Origin: JBFJWU01 sp041623475 [NCBI: bacterium]
GTDB lineage: Bacteria > J088
Reading direction: 5' to 3'
Assembly (NCBI GenBank): GCA_041623475.1
Contig: JBFJWU010000176.1
Coordinates: 1 to 7,233, forward strand
DNA length: 7,233 bases
In this document: in pieces, positions 1,992 through 7,233 of the stretch
Numbering within the stretch: the first letter of the stretch is position 1
Layout of the letters: every line of letters begins with the position of its first letter
Made by a program: the position numbers and the translations under genes
Notes under the pieces: model-generated
Told to the model about the DNA's origin: nothing
The model's input: only the letters and a program-made list of their open reading frames with translations
Databases searched by the model: none

Positions 1992-2022
1992 AGCATACCG
2001 TTGGAGCTGCAGCTCCGGCCAA
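1992..2022 (-). promoter_or_regulatory. Tentative divergent promoter for the DUF2889 gene
   Basis: On the minus strand TATGCT (1997-1992) could be a -10 element. The only -35-like hexamer nearby is TTGGCC (2022-2017), 19 bases away, so the match is poor. It is listed because the gene needs a promoter in this gap and because the thiolase side carries the same TATGCT hexamer. The -35 candidate would overlap the operator. Confidence 0.2.
2003..2016. repeat. Perfect 14-bp palindrome beside operator 1
   Basis: GGAGCTGCAGCTCC is an exact inverted repeat with no central spacer. It abuts, and shares two bases with, the outer edge of the long operator palindrome. It could be a binding site for a second regulator in the divergent intergenic region, or chance in GC-rich DNA. 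No second copy was noticed in the window. Confidence 0.5.
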
Positions 2023-2053
2023 AGTGTAAAGTTGAACTTTGCACTTTGGCCGG
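2015..2053. promoter_or_regulatory. Operator 1: 39-bp near-perfect palindrome in the DUF2889/thiolase divergent gap
   Basis: Two 19-base arms flank a single central base (2034) with one mismatch (A2028 region versus G2041). The shared core at 2020-2048 is CAAAGTGTAAAGT, three bases, then ACTTTGCACTTTG. Each arm is itself a direct repeat of AAAGT with a seven-base period. The same 13-3-13 layout recurs at 3281-3309, which argues for one sequence-specific dimeric repressor, of TetR type by length and symmetry. The site overlaps the proposed -35 of the thiolase promoter and lies where a promoter for DUF2889 is expected, so one bound protein could control both directions. The regulator is not encoded in the window. 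Confidence 0.8.
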
Positions 2054-2067
2054 GGCTGGGATATGCT
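2039..2067 (+). promoter_or_regulatory. Candidate thiolase promoter overlapping operator 1
   Basis: TTGCAC (2039-2044), 17 bases and TATGCT (2062-2067) give a sigma70-like pair of modest quality. Transcription would begin near 2074, about 20 bases before the start codon. The -35 lies inside the right arm of the operator, so repressor binding would block polymerase. Confidence 0.4.
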
Positions 2068-2083
2068 GAGCGCGCCGCGGATC

Positions 2084-2090
2084 GGAGGTT
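2084..2090 (+). promoter_or_regulatory. Ribosome binding site fixing the thiolase GTG start
   Basis: GGAGGTT lies five bases before the GTG at 2096. It selects this start over the upstream in-frame TTG at 2039, which lies inside the operator. Confidence 0.75.
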
Positions 2091-2095
2091 CCACT

Positions 2096-3241
2096 GTGTC
2101 AGACGCATTTATTATCGACGCAATCCACACGCCACGCGGACGCCGCAATGGTGCCCTGGCGGGTGTCCATCCAATTGACCTCTATGGATTGTCGCTTCGG
2201 GCGCTGCTGGACCGAACCGCTGTTGATCCGAATGTAATTGAGGACGTCGTCACCGGGTGCGTTTCGCAGGCTGGCGAACAGGGCCGCTGCATGGCAAGGG
2301 CCGCGGTATTGGCAGCCGGCCTGCCGCAATCGGTTCCCGGTGTCTCGCTGGACCGATTCTGCGGATCCGGCCTGCAGGCGATCAACTTTGCTGCGATGGC
2401 CGTCCAATCGGGACATATGGACGTGGTTATTGCCGGTGGCGTGGAAAGCATGAGCCGAATGCCGATTGGCTCGGCCTGGGGTACAGAACGCCCCAGAACC
2501 CTCACTGACAAGTACGACATCAGTACCCAGTTTGTCGCCGCCGAGCGTATCGCCGACAAGTACGGGATATCGCGCGAAGAATGTGACCAGTTTGCGGTCG
2601 AATCCCAGCGCCGGGCCGCAGCCGCCCATCAGGAAGGCCGTTTTGCCCGGCAGATTGCGCCGGTCAAATGGACCGACCCGGATGGCCATTGCCACCAACT
2701 GGATCATAACGAACACATGCGCCCGGGCACGACGGTCGAGGACCTGTCCAGACTGACAACGATCGCACCGGATGGTCGCGTCGTTACCGCTGGTAATGCA
2801 TCCGGTGTGGTTGACGCGTCCGCGGCGGTGCTCGTGGCAGGCAGCGGGGCCGCCAAACGCCTGGACTTGACCCCCAGGGCGCGAATTGTTGCCACCGATG
2901 TCACCGGCTCAGACCCGTACTTTATGTTGACGGGCATTATTCCGGCAACCTCCCGGGTCCTTGCCAAGGCAGGCTTGACACTTGCTGATATCGACCTGGT
3001 TGAAATCAACGAAGCATTCGCCCCGATTCCGCTGGCGTGGATGCGGGAATTCGACTTTGATCCTGCCCGGATCAATGTTAATGGTGGTGCCATTGCCCTT
3101 GGCCACCCGCTTGGTGCGACTGGCGCAATCCTGGCGGCAACAATCATTGACCGGCTTCAGCAGACCCGGGGCCGATACGGACTGATTACAATTTGCATGG
3201 GTTACGGGATGGGCATTGCAACCATTGTCGAGCGGCTTTAG
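2096..3241 (+). CDS. Acetyl-CoA acyltransferase / 3-ketoacyl-CoA thiolase (FadA-type)
   Basis: A 381-residue complete thiolase, close to the usual ~390, which by family cleaves 3-ketoacyl-CoA with free CoA to acetyl-CoA (or propionyl-CoA) and a shortened acyl-CoA. Catalytic residues are all present: nucleophile Cys89 in D-R-F-C-G-S-G, the N-E-A-F motif at 305-308, His337 in G-G-A-I-A-L-G-H-P-L-G-A-T-G, and acid/base Cys367 in C-M-G-Y-G-M-G. The last motif has Tyr370 where many FadA proteins have Gly. The start reads M-S-D-A-F-I-I-D-A-I, the normal N-terminus, from a GTG preceded by GGAGGTT. The gene is monocistronic by appearance: it diverges from DUF2889, and the next gene follows after a 110-base gap with its own promoter and operator. 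Degradative rather than biosynthetic use is inferred from the dehydrogenase and ligase neighbours. Chain-length or steroid specificity cannot be judged. Confidence 0.92.
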   Translation: MSDAFIIDAIHTPRGRRNGALAGVHPIDLYGLSLRALLDRTAVDPNVIEDVVTGCVSQAGEQGRCMARAAVLAAGLPQSVPGVSLDRFCGSGLQAINFAAMAVQSGHMDVVIAGGVESMSRMPIGSAWGTERPRTLTDKYDISTQFVAAERIADKYGISREECDQFAVESQRRAAAAHQEGRFARQIAPVKWTDPDGHCHQLDHNEHMRPGTTVEDLSRLTTIAPDGRVVTAGNASGVVDASAAVLVAGSGAAKRLDLTPRARIVATDVTGSDPYFMLTGIIPATSRVLAKAGLTLADIDLVEINEAFAPIPLAWMREFDFDPARINVNGGAIALGHPLGATGAILAATIIDRLQQTRGRYGLITICMGYGMGIATIVERL

Positions 3242-3250
3242 GATCCAAAT

Positions 3251-3279
3251 TTGACAAATACTCCCGGCGCCGCTAGAGT
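3251..3279 (+). promoter_or_regulatory. Strong sigma70-like promoter of the oxidoreductase-dehydrogenase-ligase operon
   Basis: A perfect -35 TTGACA (3251-3256), an optimal 17-base spacer and TAGAGT (3274-3279, four of six -10 consensus bases) lie in the gap after the thiolase stop. The expected start point near 3285-3287 falls inside operator 2, giving a leader of about 65 bases before the ATG at 3352. Confidence 0.7.
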
Positions 3280-3280
3280 A

Positions 3281-3309
3281 CAAAGTGTAAAGTGCTACTT
3301 TTTACTTTG
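3281..3309. promoter_or_regulatory. Operator 2: second copy of the long palindrome, over the transcription start
   Basis: CAAAGTGTAAAGT, three bases (GCT), then ACTTTTTACTTTG. The arms match as an inverted repeat at 11 of 13 positions. The left arm is identical to that of operator 1, and the 13-3-13 geometry is the same. It starts two bases after the -10 element, a classic position for repression of initiation. Quarter-sites AAAGT/ACTTT start at 3282, 3289, 3297 and 3304, the same 7-8-7 spacing as in operator 1. Confidence 0.78.
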
Positions 3310-3351: not shown

Positions 3352-4461
3352 ATGACGCTCGATCTGAATGACGTCAATTTTGGCCTGTTGCAACTGTTTG
3401 AAGATGCCAAGGGCAAGACAGAGCAACAATTTCTCCAGGAGAATATTGACCTGATCACCTACGCCGACAGGGTCGGCCTGGACGGAGTCTGGCTGGCAGA
3501 ACACCATTTCACAGACTATGGCGTGATGCCGTCGACCCAGGTTTTTGCGGCCTACCTTGCCGGAATTACTGAACGAATCCGCATTGGTACCGGGGTTGTC
3601 GTAACGCCATTCCATAACCCGGTCCGTCTGGTTGAAGAATTCTCGTTTATAGACGTCCTCTCGAATGGTCGCCTGGACCTGGGCATTGGCAGTGGCTACC
3701 AGCCACAGGAATTCGCGGGCTATGGCGTCGACATGAAGACCAAGGGCCAGCGCTTCGACGAGGGCCTGGAGATCCTGCAACAGGCCTGGACCACAGGAAA
3801 AGTTGATTACAAGGGCGAAATTTACAACTTTGACAACATCAGCCCCCGGCCCCACCCTGTCCAGAAACCCCATCCGCCGATTTTTGGTGCAAGCTTCAAC
3901 CCTGAAACAATCAAATACCAGGCCATGAAGAAACTCAACCTGCTGTTCTCGACCCTGTTGACCGGTCCTGAGAAGATTATCGAATACAGGGACATCCTCA
4001 GGGACCAAGGCGAGAATCCGGACGATTATCGAATTGGCGGATTGTTGTTTCTCTATGTGGCCGAGGACTTCGATACCGCCTGCGCCGAATTCGAAGAGCC
4101 ATTCTGGTGGTACTTTCGCAAGTTCGTGGAGCAGATTCCCTTTGACCGAATTCCCGAAGAAGCAACCTTTTACCGGTCGCTGACGGGAATGTACAAAGGC
4201 TGGCTCGACATGTACGACAAAGGGGACATGTCCTTCAAGGAAATGGTGAACCTGGGGCCAACTGCGCACAGTTTTATGATCGGCAGCCCCGACCAGGTCA
4301 CAGAAAAGCTGGAAAGCCTGATGGGCATGTACCCGGGACTGACCGATATCCTGCTTTGGACACGCCTGGGCGGACTGGAAAACGAGAAGGTCATGAAGTC
4401 AATGAAGTTATTTGTTGAAGAAGTCGTACAGCCGGCTCGCGACAATAACGCGGCCGCCTGA
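3352..4461 (+). CDS. Luciferase-like (LLM class) flavin-dependent oxidoreductase
   Basis: A 369-residue TIM-barrel protein of the bacterial luciferase superfamily. Diagnostic segments in order are an N-terminal barrel strand V-N-F-G-L-L, W-L-A-E-H-H-F at 47-53, I-R-I-G-T-G-V-V-V followed by P-F-H-N-P-V-R-L-V-E-E (about 76-96), G-R-L-D-L-G-I-G-S-G-Y at 106-116, and P-R-P-H-P-V-Q-K-P-H-P-P-I-F-G in the middle. The C-terminal I-G-S-P-D-Q-V-T-E-K-L element is also typical. Such enzymes use reduced FMN with oxygen (monooxygenases) or F420 (dehydrogenases or reductases). The E-H-H-F type resembles FMN-linked alkanal monooxygenase-like members, but cofactor and substrate are inferred. It is first in an operon, 20 bases before a dehydrogenase-like gene, behind its own promoter and operator. 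No signal peptide or membrane segment is apparent. In this setting it may oxygenate a CoA-ester intermediate or a ring or branched substrate. Confidence 0.88.
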   Translation: MTLDLNDVNFGLLQLFEDAKGKTEQQFLQENIDLITYADRVGLDGVWLAEHHFTDYGVMPSTQVFAAYLAGITERIRIGTGVVVTPFHNPVRLVEEFSFIDVLSNGRLDLGIGSGYQPQEFAGYGVDMKTKGQRFDEGLEILQQAWTTGKVDYKGEIYNFDNISPRPHPVQKPHPPIFGASFNPETIKYQAMKKLNLLFSTLLTGPEKIIEYRDILRDQGENPDDYRIGGLLFLYVAEDFDTACAEFEEPFWWYFRKFVEQIPFDRIPEEATFYRSLTGMYKGWLDMYDKGDMSFKEMVNLGPTAHSFMIGSPDQVTEKLESLMGMYPGLTDILLWTRLGGLENEKVMKSMKLFVEEVVQPARDNNAAA

Positions 4462-4481: not shown

Positions 4482-5537
4482 ATGGACTTCTCCATATCCG
4501 ATGAGGAACAGCTGGTTCGCGACACCGCGGCGGATTTCGCCAGGGCGCTGCGGGAACGTTCCCGCGAAGCAGAAACAAACGGGGTCCACGAGCAGCTGCA
4601 AGCCCAGTATGCGGAAATGGCCTTTGAATCACTGGACTGGCCCGAAGCCCACGGCGGTGCGGCCCTGTCCCCGTACCTGAAAAGCCTGGTCGTTGAAGAA
4701 CTGAGCTACGGATGCGCGGGACAGATGCTGGGACTGGAACCCCGCGCACTGGTCCAATACGCTATTGCCGCGCTGCCCGATGGCGACGTCAAAGCAGCCC
4801 TCTACGCCGACATCTCTGGCAACGCCCCCAGGACGCTGGCGTTCTATATCGATGCCGAGGACCGACTGACGGTCGATGCCAACCGCATCCAGGGAACCAT
4901 TCCCTGGGTTCCCAACTCGTCCGCAGATGCCCTGGTCGTCGTCAAACAGCAGACGTTCTACCTAGTCACAAGCGGATTTGAGTTGAACGCTGTACTCCCC
5001 TGCGGTCTGCAAGCCGCAGGGGCTTCCGAGGTCCTGGTCAATGCTCAGGCCGAACAGGCCATCGAACTGGCGCCCGACGCGGTTGCCCGGATGACCGCCC
5101 AGGTTCGGGTCTATCTTGCCGCGGCACTGATCGGCGTTGCCCGGGCGTCCCTGGACTACGCCTTTTCCTATACCGAAGAACGTGAGGTATTCGGCCAGAA
5201 GATCGCCCATCACCAGGGCATTGCATTCAAACTGGCAGAAATGGCCATCGCAATCGAGTCCGCCCGAATGCTGGTGATGCAGGCGGCTTTTGCCCTTGAA
5301 TCCGGCCCTGGCGATTCAGAAGCGGCCCTGGCGCTAATCCAGGCAACCGAGATGAGCCTGTCGGTAACCATCGACGGCGTCCAACTGCTTGGCGGTCACG
5401 GATTTGTCAAGGATCATCTGGTTGAAAAATGGATGCGTGAAGCACGCACCCTGTCCCTGATGTTTGGTGGCCGCGACGGCGCAGCCATCGACGCCGAGGC
5501 AGCCGGAATTTCAAACTGGGGGTTTGCAGCGGCATGA
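4482..5537 (+). CDS. Acyl-CoA dehydrogenase-like short subunit lacking the catalytic base (probable beta subunit)
   Basis: A 351-residue acyl-CoA dehydrogenase homologue, about 30-50 residues shorter than a homomeric enzyme. The N-terminal helical domain starts with D-F-S-I-S-D-E-E-Q-L-V-R. The middle beta domain is reduced and lacks the flavin-contacting T-E-P-x-A-G-S-D motif. The C-terminal helical domain is well kept, with R234-E-V-F-G238 and Q301-L-L-G-G305-H-G, the elements that in homotetramers reach into the neighbouring subunit's FAD site. The catalytic Glu is missing: counting from Arg319, Phe328 occupies its place. It is therefore unlikely to act alone and most probably pairs with the next gene product, as ChsE-type (FadE28/FadE29) alpha2beta2 dehydrogenases do in steroid catabolism. 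The ATG at 4482 has only a weak ribosome site, 20 bases after the previous stop. Its stop overlaps the next ATG by four bases. Confidence 0.87.
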   Translation: MDFSISDEEQLVRDTAADFARALRERSREAETNGVHEQLQAQYAEMAFESLDWPEAHGGAALSPYLKSLVVEELSYGCAGQMLGLEPRALVQYAIAALPDGDVKAALYADISGNAPRTLAFYIDAEDRLTVDANRIQGTIPWVPNSSADALVVVKQQTFYLVTSGFELNAVLPCGLQAAGASEVLVNAQAEQAIELAPDAVARMTAQVRVYLAAALIGVARASLDYAFSYTEEREVFGQKIAHHQGIAFKLAEMAIAIESARMLVMQAAFALESGPGDSEAALALIQATEMSLSVTIDGVQLLGGHGFVKDHLVEKWMREARTLSLMFGGRDGAAIDAEAAGISNWGFAAA

Positions 5538-6742
5538 ACCTGAACGTCCCCGAAAAGATAACGTCCATGACCCGGATGATTTCCTGGCTGGGCAAGGAAT
5601 ACTTTCGCCCCCTGGGTATGGAGGCCGATCGCACAGGCAATCCCGTGCCTCCGGACAGTGAATTGTATTTCAAATTGGCTGAAATGGGCTTTCAAAGCCG
5701 AATCAAAATCGGCAAAAAGCCCAAAACAGACGGTGATGACAACAAACCAAGGAAAGCAGGCTGGGGAGCCCGAACCGGCGTAATGATTGGCGAAGAAGCG
5801 TCCTATTGGGATCGCGGCGTCGCCGTTACATTGCCCGGCCCTGGCCTGGGCGGACCTGCATTGCAGAAAATGGGTACCCAGGAACAGCAGGAAAAGTATC
5901 TAACGCCGTTCCTCGACACCAGCCAGCCCCGCTGGGGGGCATTTGGCATGACCGAGCCGGGTGCCGGATCAGATGTCGCCCGAATCGTTACCCGTTGCGA
6001 ACAGAAAGACGGCCGCTGGATCCTGAACGGCGAGAAAGCCTTCTGCTCCAATTCCGACCGGGCCGACTGGATTGTTATCTGGGCGACGGTGGACCCGACC
6101 CAGGGCCGCGCGGGCCACCGTGCCTTCATCGTTGAAAAAGGTACACCCGGGCTCTCGATTCCGCGCCACGAGCCCAAAATGGGCCTCAAAGCCTACGCGT
6201 CATGCTCCGTCCTGTTGGAGAATGTCGAACTCGGCGACGAACACCTGCTGGGTGGCCCGGAATACTATGAGGGCCGCGAAGGGTTCAAAGGCGCCATGAA
6301 AGCGTTTGATGCGACCCGCCCGCTTGTTGCCGCCATGGCAATCGGCATCGGCCGCGCAGCGTGGGATCACACGCGGCAGGTGGTCGCTGAAAATTACGAC
6401 CTGTCCCGGCCGATTCCCCGCTATGCAAAGATTCGCGCAAAAGTGGTCGAGGTCAAGCGTCGGCTGGATGCTGGCAAGTTGTTAAGCTGGCGCGCGGCCT
6501 GGATGGCCGATCACGGGATTCCCAATACGGTCGAGGCATCCTATGCCAAGGCCTATTGCCCGACGGCAGCGATCGAAGCGGTATCCCTTTGCCTGGATAT
6601 CATTGGCGACGCCGGCATCCGCAATGACCAGTTTGTCGAAAAGCTTTATCGCGACGTCAAGGCAATGGATATTGTCGAAGGCACCGGACAGATCCAGCGT
6701 CGGGTCATCGCCCGGCGACGCTTCGGCTACCCCGGACAATAG
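5534..6742 (+). CDS. Acyl-CoA dehydrogenase, catalytic (alpha-type) subunit
   Basis: A 402-residue acyl-CoA dehydrogenase that would desaturate an acyl-CoA at C2-C3 with FAD and pass electrons to ETF. Visible motifs are F-G-M-T-E-P-G-A-G-S-D (T-E-P at 140-142) and G-E-K-A-F-C-S-N-S in the beta domain, then L-Y-R-D-V-K-A-M-D-I-V-E-G-T-G-Q-I-Q-R with catalytic Glu382. Two normal motifs are degenerate. The R-x-x-F-G-x-x-I stretch reads S-R-P-I-P-R-Y-A-K-I (291-300), and the Q-x-x-G-G segment reads L-D-I-I-G-D-A-G. These are exactly the parts intact in the preceding gene, so an obligate heteromer is likely. A lysine-rich insert lies at about 58-76 (K-I-G-K-K-P-K, then D-D-N-K-P-R-K). The start overlaps the upstream stop as ATGA, with only a distant GGGGG upstream, suggesting translational coupling and matched subunit levels. 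Confidence 0.9.
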   Translation: MNLNVPEKITSMTRMISWLGKEYFRPLGMEADRTGNPVPPDSELYFKLAEMGFQSRIKIGKKPKTDGDDNKPRKAGWGARTGVMIGEEASYWDRGVAVTLPGPGLGGPALQKMGTQEQQEKYLTPFLDTSQPRWGAFGMTEPGAGSDVARIVTRCEQKDGRWILNGEKAFCSNSDRADWIVIWATVDPTQGRAGHRAFIVEKGTPGLSIPRHEPKMGLKAYASCSVLLENVELGDEHLLGGPEYYEGREGFKGAMKAFDATRPLVAAMAIGIGRAAWDHTRQVVAENYDLSRPIPRYAKIRAKVVEVKRRLDAGKLLSWRAAWMADHGIPNTVEASYAKAYCPTAAIEAVSLCLDIIGDAGIRNDQFVEKLYRDVKAMDIVEGTGQIQRRVIARRRFGYPGQ

Positions 6743-7233
6743 ATGGCCAATGTAGCCGATATCCTGCGCCGCCGAACCGCCGATTTTGCCGACAATCTGG
6801 CAATCCAGGTCGATGGCGGCAATGCGCTGACCTATCGCGAACTGGATGAATGGTCGTCGCGGTTCGCAAACTGGCTGCAATCCGTCGGCATTGGCAAAGG
6901 CGATCGTGTGTCTGTATCGCTCTACAACCAGTCCGGTGACCTGCACCTGGTCAGTTACTTCGGTGTACAGAAAGCCGGTGCCGTTTTCGTGCCGGTCAAC
7001 ATCCGTTATACGGCGCGTGAAGCAGAGCAGCAACTGACCCATTCGGGCGCCCGGATTCTCATCGTCGAACCTGAACTGGCAGCCAGCTGGGCATCTGCGG
7101 TTGGCGACGAACTGAAGGTCGTGGCGTCTGACCAATTGCTTGATACAGTGCGCAACCATCCAAACGTCGACCCTGCCGTAGAAACAGCCGACGACGACAC
7201 CGCCGAAATCATGTATACATCCGGCACAACCGG
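6743..7233 (+). CDS. AMP-forming acyl-CoA synthetase/ligase, N-terminal part (3' truncated)
   Basis: The first 163 residues of an adenylate-forming (ANL family) enzyme; the frame is open to the window edge. Typical features are L-T-Y-R-E-L-D near residues 29-35, G-I-G-K-G-D-R-V at about 50-57, Y-F-G-V-Q-K-A-G-A-V-F-V-P-V-N at about 72-86, and E-I-M-Y-T-S-G-T-T-G at the very end. That last segment is the start of the ATP phosphate-binding loop (A3 motif). It would activate a carboxylic acid to an acyl-AMP and then an acyl-CoA, feeding the dehydrogenase encoded just upstream. The ATG at 6743 directly follows the preceding TAG with no bases between, and no clear Shine-Dalgarno site is seen, so reinitiation after the dehydrogenase is likely. 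Acid specificity cannot be read because the substrate-binding part lies beyond the window. Confidence 0.9.
   Translation, partial: MANVADILRRRTADFADNLAIQVDGGNALTYRELDEWSSRFANWLQSVGIGKGDRVSVSLYNQSGDLHLVSYFGVQKAGAVFVPVNIRYTAREAEQQLTHSGARILIVEPELAASWASAVGDELKVVASDQLLDTVRNHPNVDPAVETADDDTAEIMYTSGTT

Follow-up and report, generated by a model that had tools for sequence, protein, structure and literature searches.

Two copies of a four-pentamer palindrome beside acyl-CoA genes are probable operators of a MerR-family regulator

The DNA stretch analyzed here (the window; 7,233 nucleotides in full) carries genes of the acyl-CoA breakdown type. Its 5' part encodes a thiolase-like protein (end only), a DUF35 protein of the ChsH2 type, and a receiver-only response regulator; the last of these, at 891-1319 between the DUF35 and DUF2889 genes, has no output domain. 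A DUF2889 protein (PF11136) is encoded on the minus strand at 1339-1932, with a GTG start picked for its AGGAGGTG ribosome site as read from the sequence. The plus strand carries a thiolase of the acetyl-CoA C-acyltransferase type (2096-3241) and a presumed operon whose first gene encodes an LLM class (luciferase-like) flavin oxidoreductase (3352-4461). Downstream on the same strand lie two acyl-CoA dehydrogenase subunit-like genes, the first (4482-5537; 351 amino acids) without a middle-domain match and the second (5534-6742) encoding 402 amino acids, and an AMP-forming acyl-CoA ligase (6743-7233) that runs past the window end. Pfam finds no DNA-binding domain and no TetR match in any of the nine window genes, and neither Pfam on these genes nor the profile described below finds a MerR of the operator-linked type in the window. 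The regulator of the sites considered here may be encoded at a place unlinked to them.

The pattern AAAGT-N2-AAAGT-N3-ACTTT-N2-ACTTT occurs in exact form at 2021-2047 (site 1) and 3282-3308 (site 2), 1,261 bases apart, as the cores of two 29-mers at 2020-2048 and 3281-3309; neither is assigned a strand. When up to 3 mismatches are tolerated, these are still the only two sites in the whole window, and dinucleotide-preserving shuffles of the window (n = 200) gave 0 pattern matches. A sequence-only reading had described both 29-mers, with an identical 13-base left arm, and had judged such a repeat unlikely by chance; all of this holds. It had also described the same three-base center and a matching right arm. 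The centers agree in length but not in sequence (TGA at site 1, GCT at site 2), and 11 of the 13 right-arm bases are shared (ACTTTGCACTTTG at site 1, ACTTTTTACTTTG at site 2). The sequence flanking site 1 differs from that flanking site 2. These data support the AAAGT/ACTTT sites as a real, repeated, non-chance element, with the function of a long operator predicted. At site 1 the core sits inside a 49-base near-perfect inverted repeat (2010-2058) with 24 positions per side, 22 of them Watson-Crick and 2 G-T. This inverted repeat is much longer than the operator common to both sites, and site 1 also has a perfect 14-base palindrome, GGAGCTGCAGCTCC, beside it (window 2003-2058).

Two promoter-like matches were found between 1900 and 3400, against a mean of 0.9 in shuffles. 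The better of the two is a sigma-70-like TTGACA-N17-TAGAGT on the plus strand (3251-3279; 10/12 consensus matches), placed as the promoter of the LLM operon. The site 2 29-mer begins 1 base past the end of TAGAGT, directly 3' of the -10 element, which would place a bound protein over the start point. Site 1 is flanked by the divergent GTG starts of DUF2889 (1932, minus strand) and the thiolase (2096, plus strand), and neither promoter-like match overlaps it. The earlier placement of site 1 between divergent genes holds, and of the claim that both copies sit exactly at promoters only the part on site 2 is upheld; overall, that reading's observation is partly confirmed. The canonical layout for activation by MerR proteins, in which the operator occupies a 19- to 20-bp spacer between -35 and -10, is not what is seen, as site 2 is 3' of a promoter-like match with a 17-bp spacer. 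A repressor-like position for site 2 is supported.

In the GTDB r220 collection, the exact pattern was retrieved from 31 loci in many phyla, with one site in each, and reading of the neighboring genes showed that MerR genes repeatedly adjoin these sites. The ORFs near them (at least 100 amino acids, within 600 nt) were called mechanically, some being overlapping and spurious. Among these 103 ORFs, MerR_1 and MerR were the commonest Pfam matches (9 each), followed by RecA and AMP-binding (3 each). TetR, the regulator type proposed by the sequence-only reading, was absent among the 25 of 102 families listed, which leaves room for one or two weak matches; the survey does not support that proposal. 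Fewer than 31 loci are represented, since locus L022 gave no ORF of the required length and distance. Independent lineages are also fewer than the counts, because related Campylobacterota loci were counted separately and contributed the RecA matches and part of the MerR matches. As a control, 63 ORFs beside 3-mismatch sites were scanned as well, and the 25 of 101 families listed for them do not include MerR.

A profile HMM built from 7 linked MerRs matched in 12/31 exact loci, 5 of them outside the training set. In a 13th locus (L009), merR lies just beyond the locus edge, as seen in L195. The remaining 18 exact loci show no MerR of this type, and several of them are AAAGT-rich by eye. The HMM matched in 0/42 loci fetched for other reasons (L032-L047 and L068-L093; 376 kb). 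The exact pattern is also present on 18 IMG/VR contigs (L094-L111), and the HMM matched 0/18 of these in the stretches examined.

Mismatched sites were scored in a sample of 128 genomes from the phylum of G006. Among the 29 newly fetched loci covered by this score, MerR was found at the site in 4/7 loci with 1-2 mismatches and in 0/22 loci with 3 mismatches (Fisher p 0.0015). The 3-mismatch matches were treated as a noise control because a reversed control pattern matches about equally often; the sites of G994 and G1059 were fetched later. By genome, MerR is at the site in 5/10 of those with at most 2 mismatches (G006, whose merR is among the HMM training sequences, and G1020, G996, G948, and G1021). 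In G1061 and G1012 a MerR lies about 2 and 4 kb from the site, and in G994, G1059, and G1026 none was found in the regions examined. The pattern is rare in Pseudomonadota: at up to 2 mismatches it was found in 2/299 genomes, including a Shewanella that was the search center and had been picked for having a match, and neither has a MerR of this type nearby. A 1-mismatch site of G005 (L066) has no MerR within 1.5 kb and a merR about 2.7 kb away.

With merR starts taken mechanically or by choice, 13 of 14 merR-linked loci have the site overlapping the start of merR (or of a Fic-MerR gene) or no more than 160 nt from it; in the other, L018, the distance is 529 nt. Three loci repeat the arrangement of window site 2, with TTGACA-N16-TATAAA (L025), TTGACA-N16-TATTTT (L028), or TTGACA-N18-TAATTT (L161) followed by an operator that overlaps the -10 end or starts at most 4 bases after it; the hexamers were picked by eye and the spacings measured. 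In L006, L021, and L026 (Campylobacterota) and in L175 and L176, the operator seems, by eye, to overlap the -35 element; among the linked loci, promoters were assigned in these alone. Start-point and -35 positions both fit repression. The operator sequence is associated with MerR genes elsewhere and, less generally, with acyl-CoA genes, and the promoter geometry is shared.

The link to acyl-CoA genes made by the sequence-only reading is supported and recurs elsewhere, in genomes that carry this operator or a variant of it. In a Desulfobacterales locus (L122), an exact site at 6682 is upstream of FmdE and two acyl-CoA dehydrogenase genes, and a 1-mismatch site at 14188 is upstream of a URO-D-type gene, which belongs to a minus-strand row with merR as its last gene. 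In L019 a merR is accompanied by an acyl-CoA dehydrogenase-like gene less than 3 kb away, and in L123 by genes for a carboxyl transferase and a short-chain dehydrogenase at a distance of some 5 kb. Two Sulfurovum loci (L195 and L196) have merR followed by a gene of 1152 amino acids, with two operators in each locus. Pfam analysis of the L027 copy identifies this gene as a transporter-acyltransferase-AMP-ligase fusion. In both Sulfurovum loci, merR and the fusion gene lie between the two operators, near recA (L195 5542-9769; L196 3820-8057).

Genome G994 has six sites, mostly of a variant with an outer AAAGC arm, and all adjoin acyl-CoA or flavin-enzyme genes, most but not all of which were identified by Pfam. 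One site separates a ligase/acyl-CoA dehydrogenase pair from an enoyl-CoA hydratase, and two lie between a BKACE/DUF35/thiolase row and a nitronate monooxygenase. The others are upstream of an OYE-type reductase, a ligase, and a gene that starts like nitronate monooxygenase. A single thiolase/DUF35/BKACE/ligase cluster of this genome contains three of the variant operators (L211 6629-9977). No further site was found at up to 4 mismatches in 729 kb (other contig starts and C35), and the roughly 1.1 of 3.7 Mb examined yielded no MerR. G1059 also has acyl-CoA-type sites and no MerR in the regions examined. Two merR-linked loci hold genes of other types as read from the sequence, namely, efflux-type genes in L126 and anaerobic oxidoreductase-type genes in L189; the link between operator and acyl-CoA genes is thus a tendency and not a rule.

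The nearest relatives of the window operon were found in the class of G999, where acyl-CoA dehydrogenase 2 has homologues of 46-59% identity in 14/145 genomes (E ≤ 1e-95). Both dehydrogenase genes are retained together in these relatives, often accompanied by an LLM gene; the LLM protein in these distant operons is at most 38% identical. No operator was found at up to 5 mismatches in the regions from the 14 genomes (L133, L140, and L148-L159), some of which are short (L140, 3.7 kb). The conservation upstream of orthologues that the sequence-only reading would predict was thus not seen among these homologues, distant as they are. Genes are listed for four of the homologue loci, and in three (L149, L153, and L155) the gene in front starts like an HTH-cupin regulator; Pfam identifies the L149 gene as HTH-cupin. 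At L149 9022-13021 and L153 6506-10491, an HTH-type gene stands ahead of a dehydrogenase-LLM-dehydrogenase operon homologous to that of the window.

Farther out, acyl-CoA dehydrogenase 2 was matched in 17/128 genomes from the phylum of G006 (E ≤ 1e-60; best G999, 55%) and in 21/299 Pseudomonadota genomes at 1e-45 (34-38% identity). The LLM protein was matched in 30/369 genomes from the class of G003 (E ≤ 1e-35; best 40% identity), in 5/190 from the class of G002 at 1e-45, in 7/112 from the phylum of G007 at 1e-45 (best 39%), and in 0/299 Pseudomonadota at E ≤ 1e-60. Three genomes with many LLM paralogues (G515, G398, and G612) have no site at up to 3 mismatches, and 14 regions around their LLM genes contain no close copy of the window cluster. 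A plasmid search with four window proteins gave only matches below 60%.

The linked MerRs are mostly about 220-270 amino acids long. An AlphaFold model of the L028 protein, made with 8 sequences (mean pLDDT 81.4, pTM 0.56), contains two winged-helix units and a long C-terminal helix. Unit 1 comprises helices at 8-15 and 19-27 with wing strands at 35-45, and unit 2 comprises helices at 106-111 and 117-125 with wing strands at 132-140. Because the modeled chain has two winged helices, a correspondence of one AAAGT to each winged helix is attractive. It is weakened by two single-domain cases with the same exact operator: a MerR of 75 amino acids with one such domain in L022 and, at L011 1721-2749, a Fic-like protein with a C-terminal MerR domain, where the operator is at the start codon. 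In its strict form, a requirement for two winged helices per chain to read four pentamers was rejected on account of these two proteins. We advance only tentatively, as a rather doubtful generalization, that a widespread and apparently unnamed two-winged-helix MerR subfamily might read the four-pentamer operator, with one AAAGT per winged helix, and repress acyl-CoA/lipid genes at the start point; by record titles it would span Campylobacterales/Sulfurovum, Desulfobacterales, Desulfoluna, Polyangia/Myxococcales, and Acidobacteria. Its assignment as a repressor of acyl-CoA/lipid genes is further weakened by the other gene types in L126 and L189.

Seven linked MerRs were tested against NCBIfam, and none reaches any cutoff. 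CarH and CarA are MerR-family repressors with long repeated operators, and they resemble the system proposed here in combining repression with an operator of many repeats. The fold matches include CarH bound to 26-bp DNA, weakly (rank 33 and below; E about 0.02), whereas a cobalamin-binding domain was found in none of the linked MerRs scanned. LiuR is close in both MerR family and pathway type, its control of branched-chain amino acid utilization being control of acyl-CoA genes. It differs in that the linked MerRs fall below the NCBIfam cutoffs and the one modeled has a second predicted winged helix. In a table of a regulon survey, LiuR is the MerR-family regulator of branched-chain amino acid utilization in Proteobacteria (PMC5343134). 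FtsR/Rv1828, an actinobacterial MerR type of about 250 amino acids, ranks first or second among the NCBIfam matches of the seven linked MerRs, with matches that extend into the second domain and always stay below the cutoff (FtsR model NF050798, best 68.5 bits against 150). Rv1828 appears under "Fatty acids" in a review table (PMC9909328). FtsR differs from the present case in its proposed motif, AACCCTAAAGTAAAGGTTGAGGGTA, as opposed to a four-pentamer operator, and in activating ftsZ (PMC6683498). Canonical MerR, CueR, SoxR, and CadR share the N-terminal MerR_1 domain and are PDB relatives by sequence and fold. The FtsR source also places canonical operators between -35 and -10 (PMC6683498), whereas the present operator occupies the start point or overlies -35 and does not sit in a 19- to 20-bp spacer. 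Within a literature search whose reach excluded most subscription papers, no published description of the motif was found by motif strings, and a text search for MerR with acyl-CoA or LiuR returned nothing relevant.

We consider it probable that a MerR-family factor whose gene lies outside the window uses both window sites as operators and controls the thiolase gene, the LLM/dehydrogenase/ligase operon, and probably DUF2889. The class is suggested by the recurrence of the same operator beside MerR-family genes in unrelated bacteria, from which we infer the same MerR class for the regulator of the window itself. A MerR dimer would bind the 27-bp four-pentamer palindrome. At site 2 it would cover the transcription start just 3' of the -10 element and block the LLM/acyl-CoA dehydrogenase/ligase operon, and at site 1 it would control the thiolase gene and probably also DUF2889, which diverges from it. 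Its release would be triggered by a compound of the pathway, for which an acyl-CoA or the free acid is the likeliest candidate. Overall, the interpretation offered by the sequence-only reading is partly supported. Counted against a MerR are its absence from the window and from 18/31 exact loci, the MerR-less sites of Pseudomonadota, G005 (L066), G994, and G1059 in the regions covered, the homologues in the class of G999 whose examined regions hold no site, and the noncanonical position of site 2.

An alternative is that the operators serve an acyl-CoA gene repressor of the TetR family, or of another family that is not MerR, their likeness to MerR-linked sites being convergent. TetR repressors of acyl-CoA genes are well known, PsrA and KstR among them. 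FadP and LiuQ are given as TetR in a regulon table (PMC5343134). The G994 acyl-CoA regulon, in which the outer arm is mostly AAAGC and the parts examined show no MerR, and the HTH-cupin class regulator in front of homologous operons also speak for such a repressor. The near-site survey argues the other way, with MerR at 9 of 103 ORFs and TetR absent among the families listed there, as do the window genes, 0/9 of which match TetR; on balance we regard a non-MerR repressor as unlikely.

Much less probable is that the inverted repeats function through hairpins in RNA or DNA (a terminator, an RNA stability element, or a repeat element) and not as operators. The plus strands fold, with a 23-pair hairpin of -42.2 kcal/mol (z -8.9) at site 1 and -21.1 kcal/mol (z -4.7) at site 2, yet a terminator-like site was called at neither place. 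The locations also disfavor hairpins, as site 1 is between divergent starts and site 2 at the start point of a promoter-like match; moreover, the two sites share their AAAGT arms despite differing outer flanks, and the same core occurs near promoter-like elements in other genomes. We give the least credence of all to two copies arisen by local duplication or chance, without a regulator. There are just two copies, and exact matches elsewhere include AAAGT-rich simple repeats, but the shuffles, the differing flanks, and the association with MerR and acyl-CoA genes elsewhere make such an origin highly improbable.

If the assignment to a MerR-family factor is correct, the palindrome would serve as a DNA signature by which a class of MerR-type repressors, often in control of acyl-CoA genes, can be recognized in uncultured lineages, and regulons could then be called from sequence alone. 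It would also mean that MerR proteins are used as plain start-point repressors and not as promoter-twisting activators.
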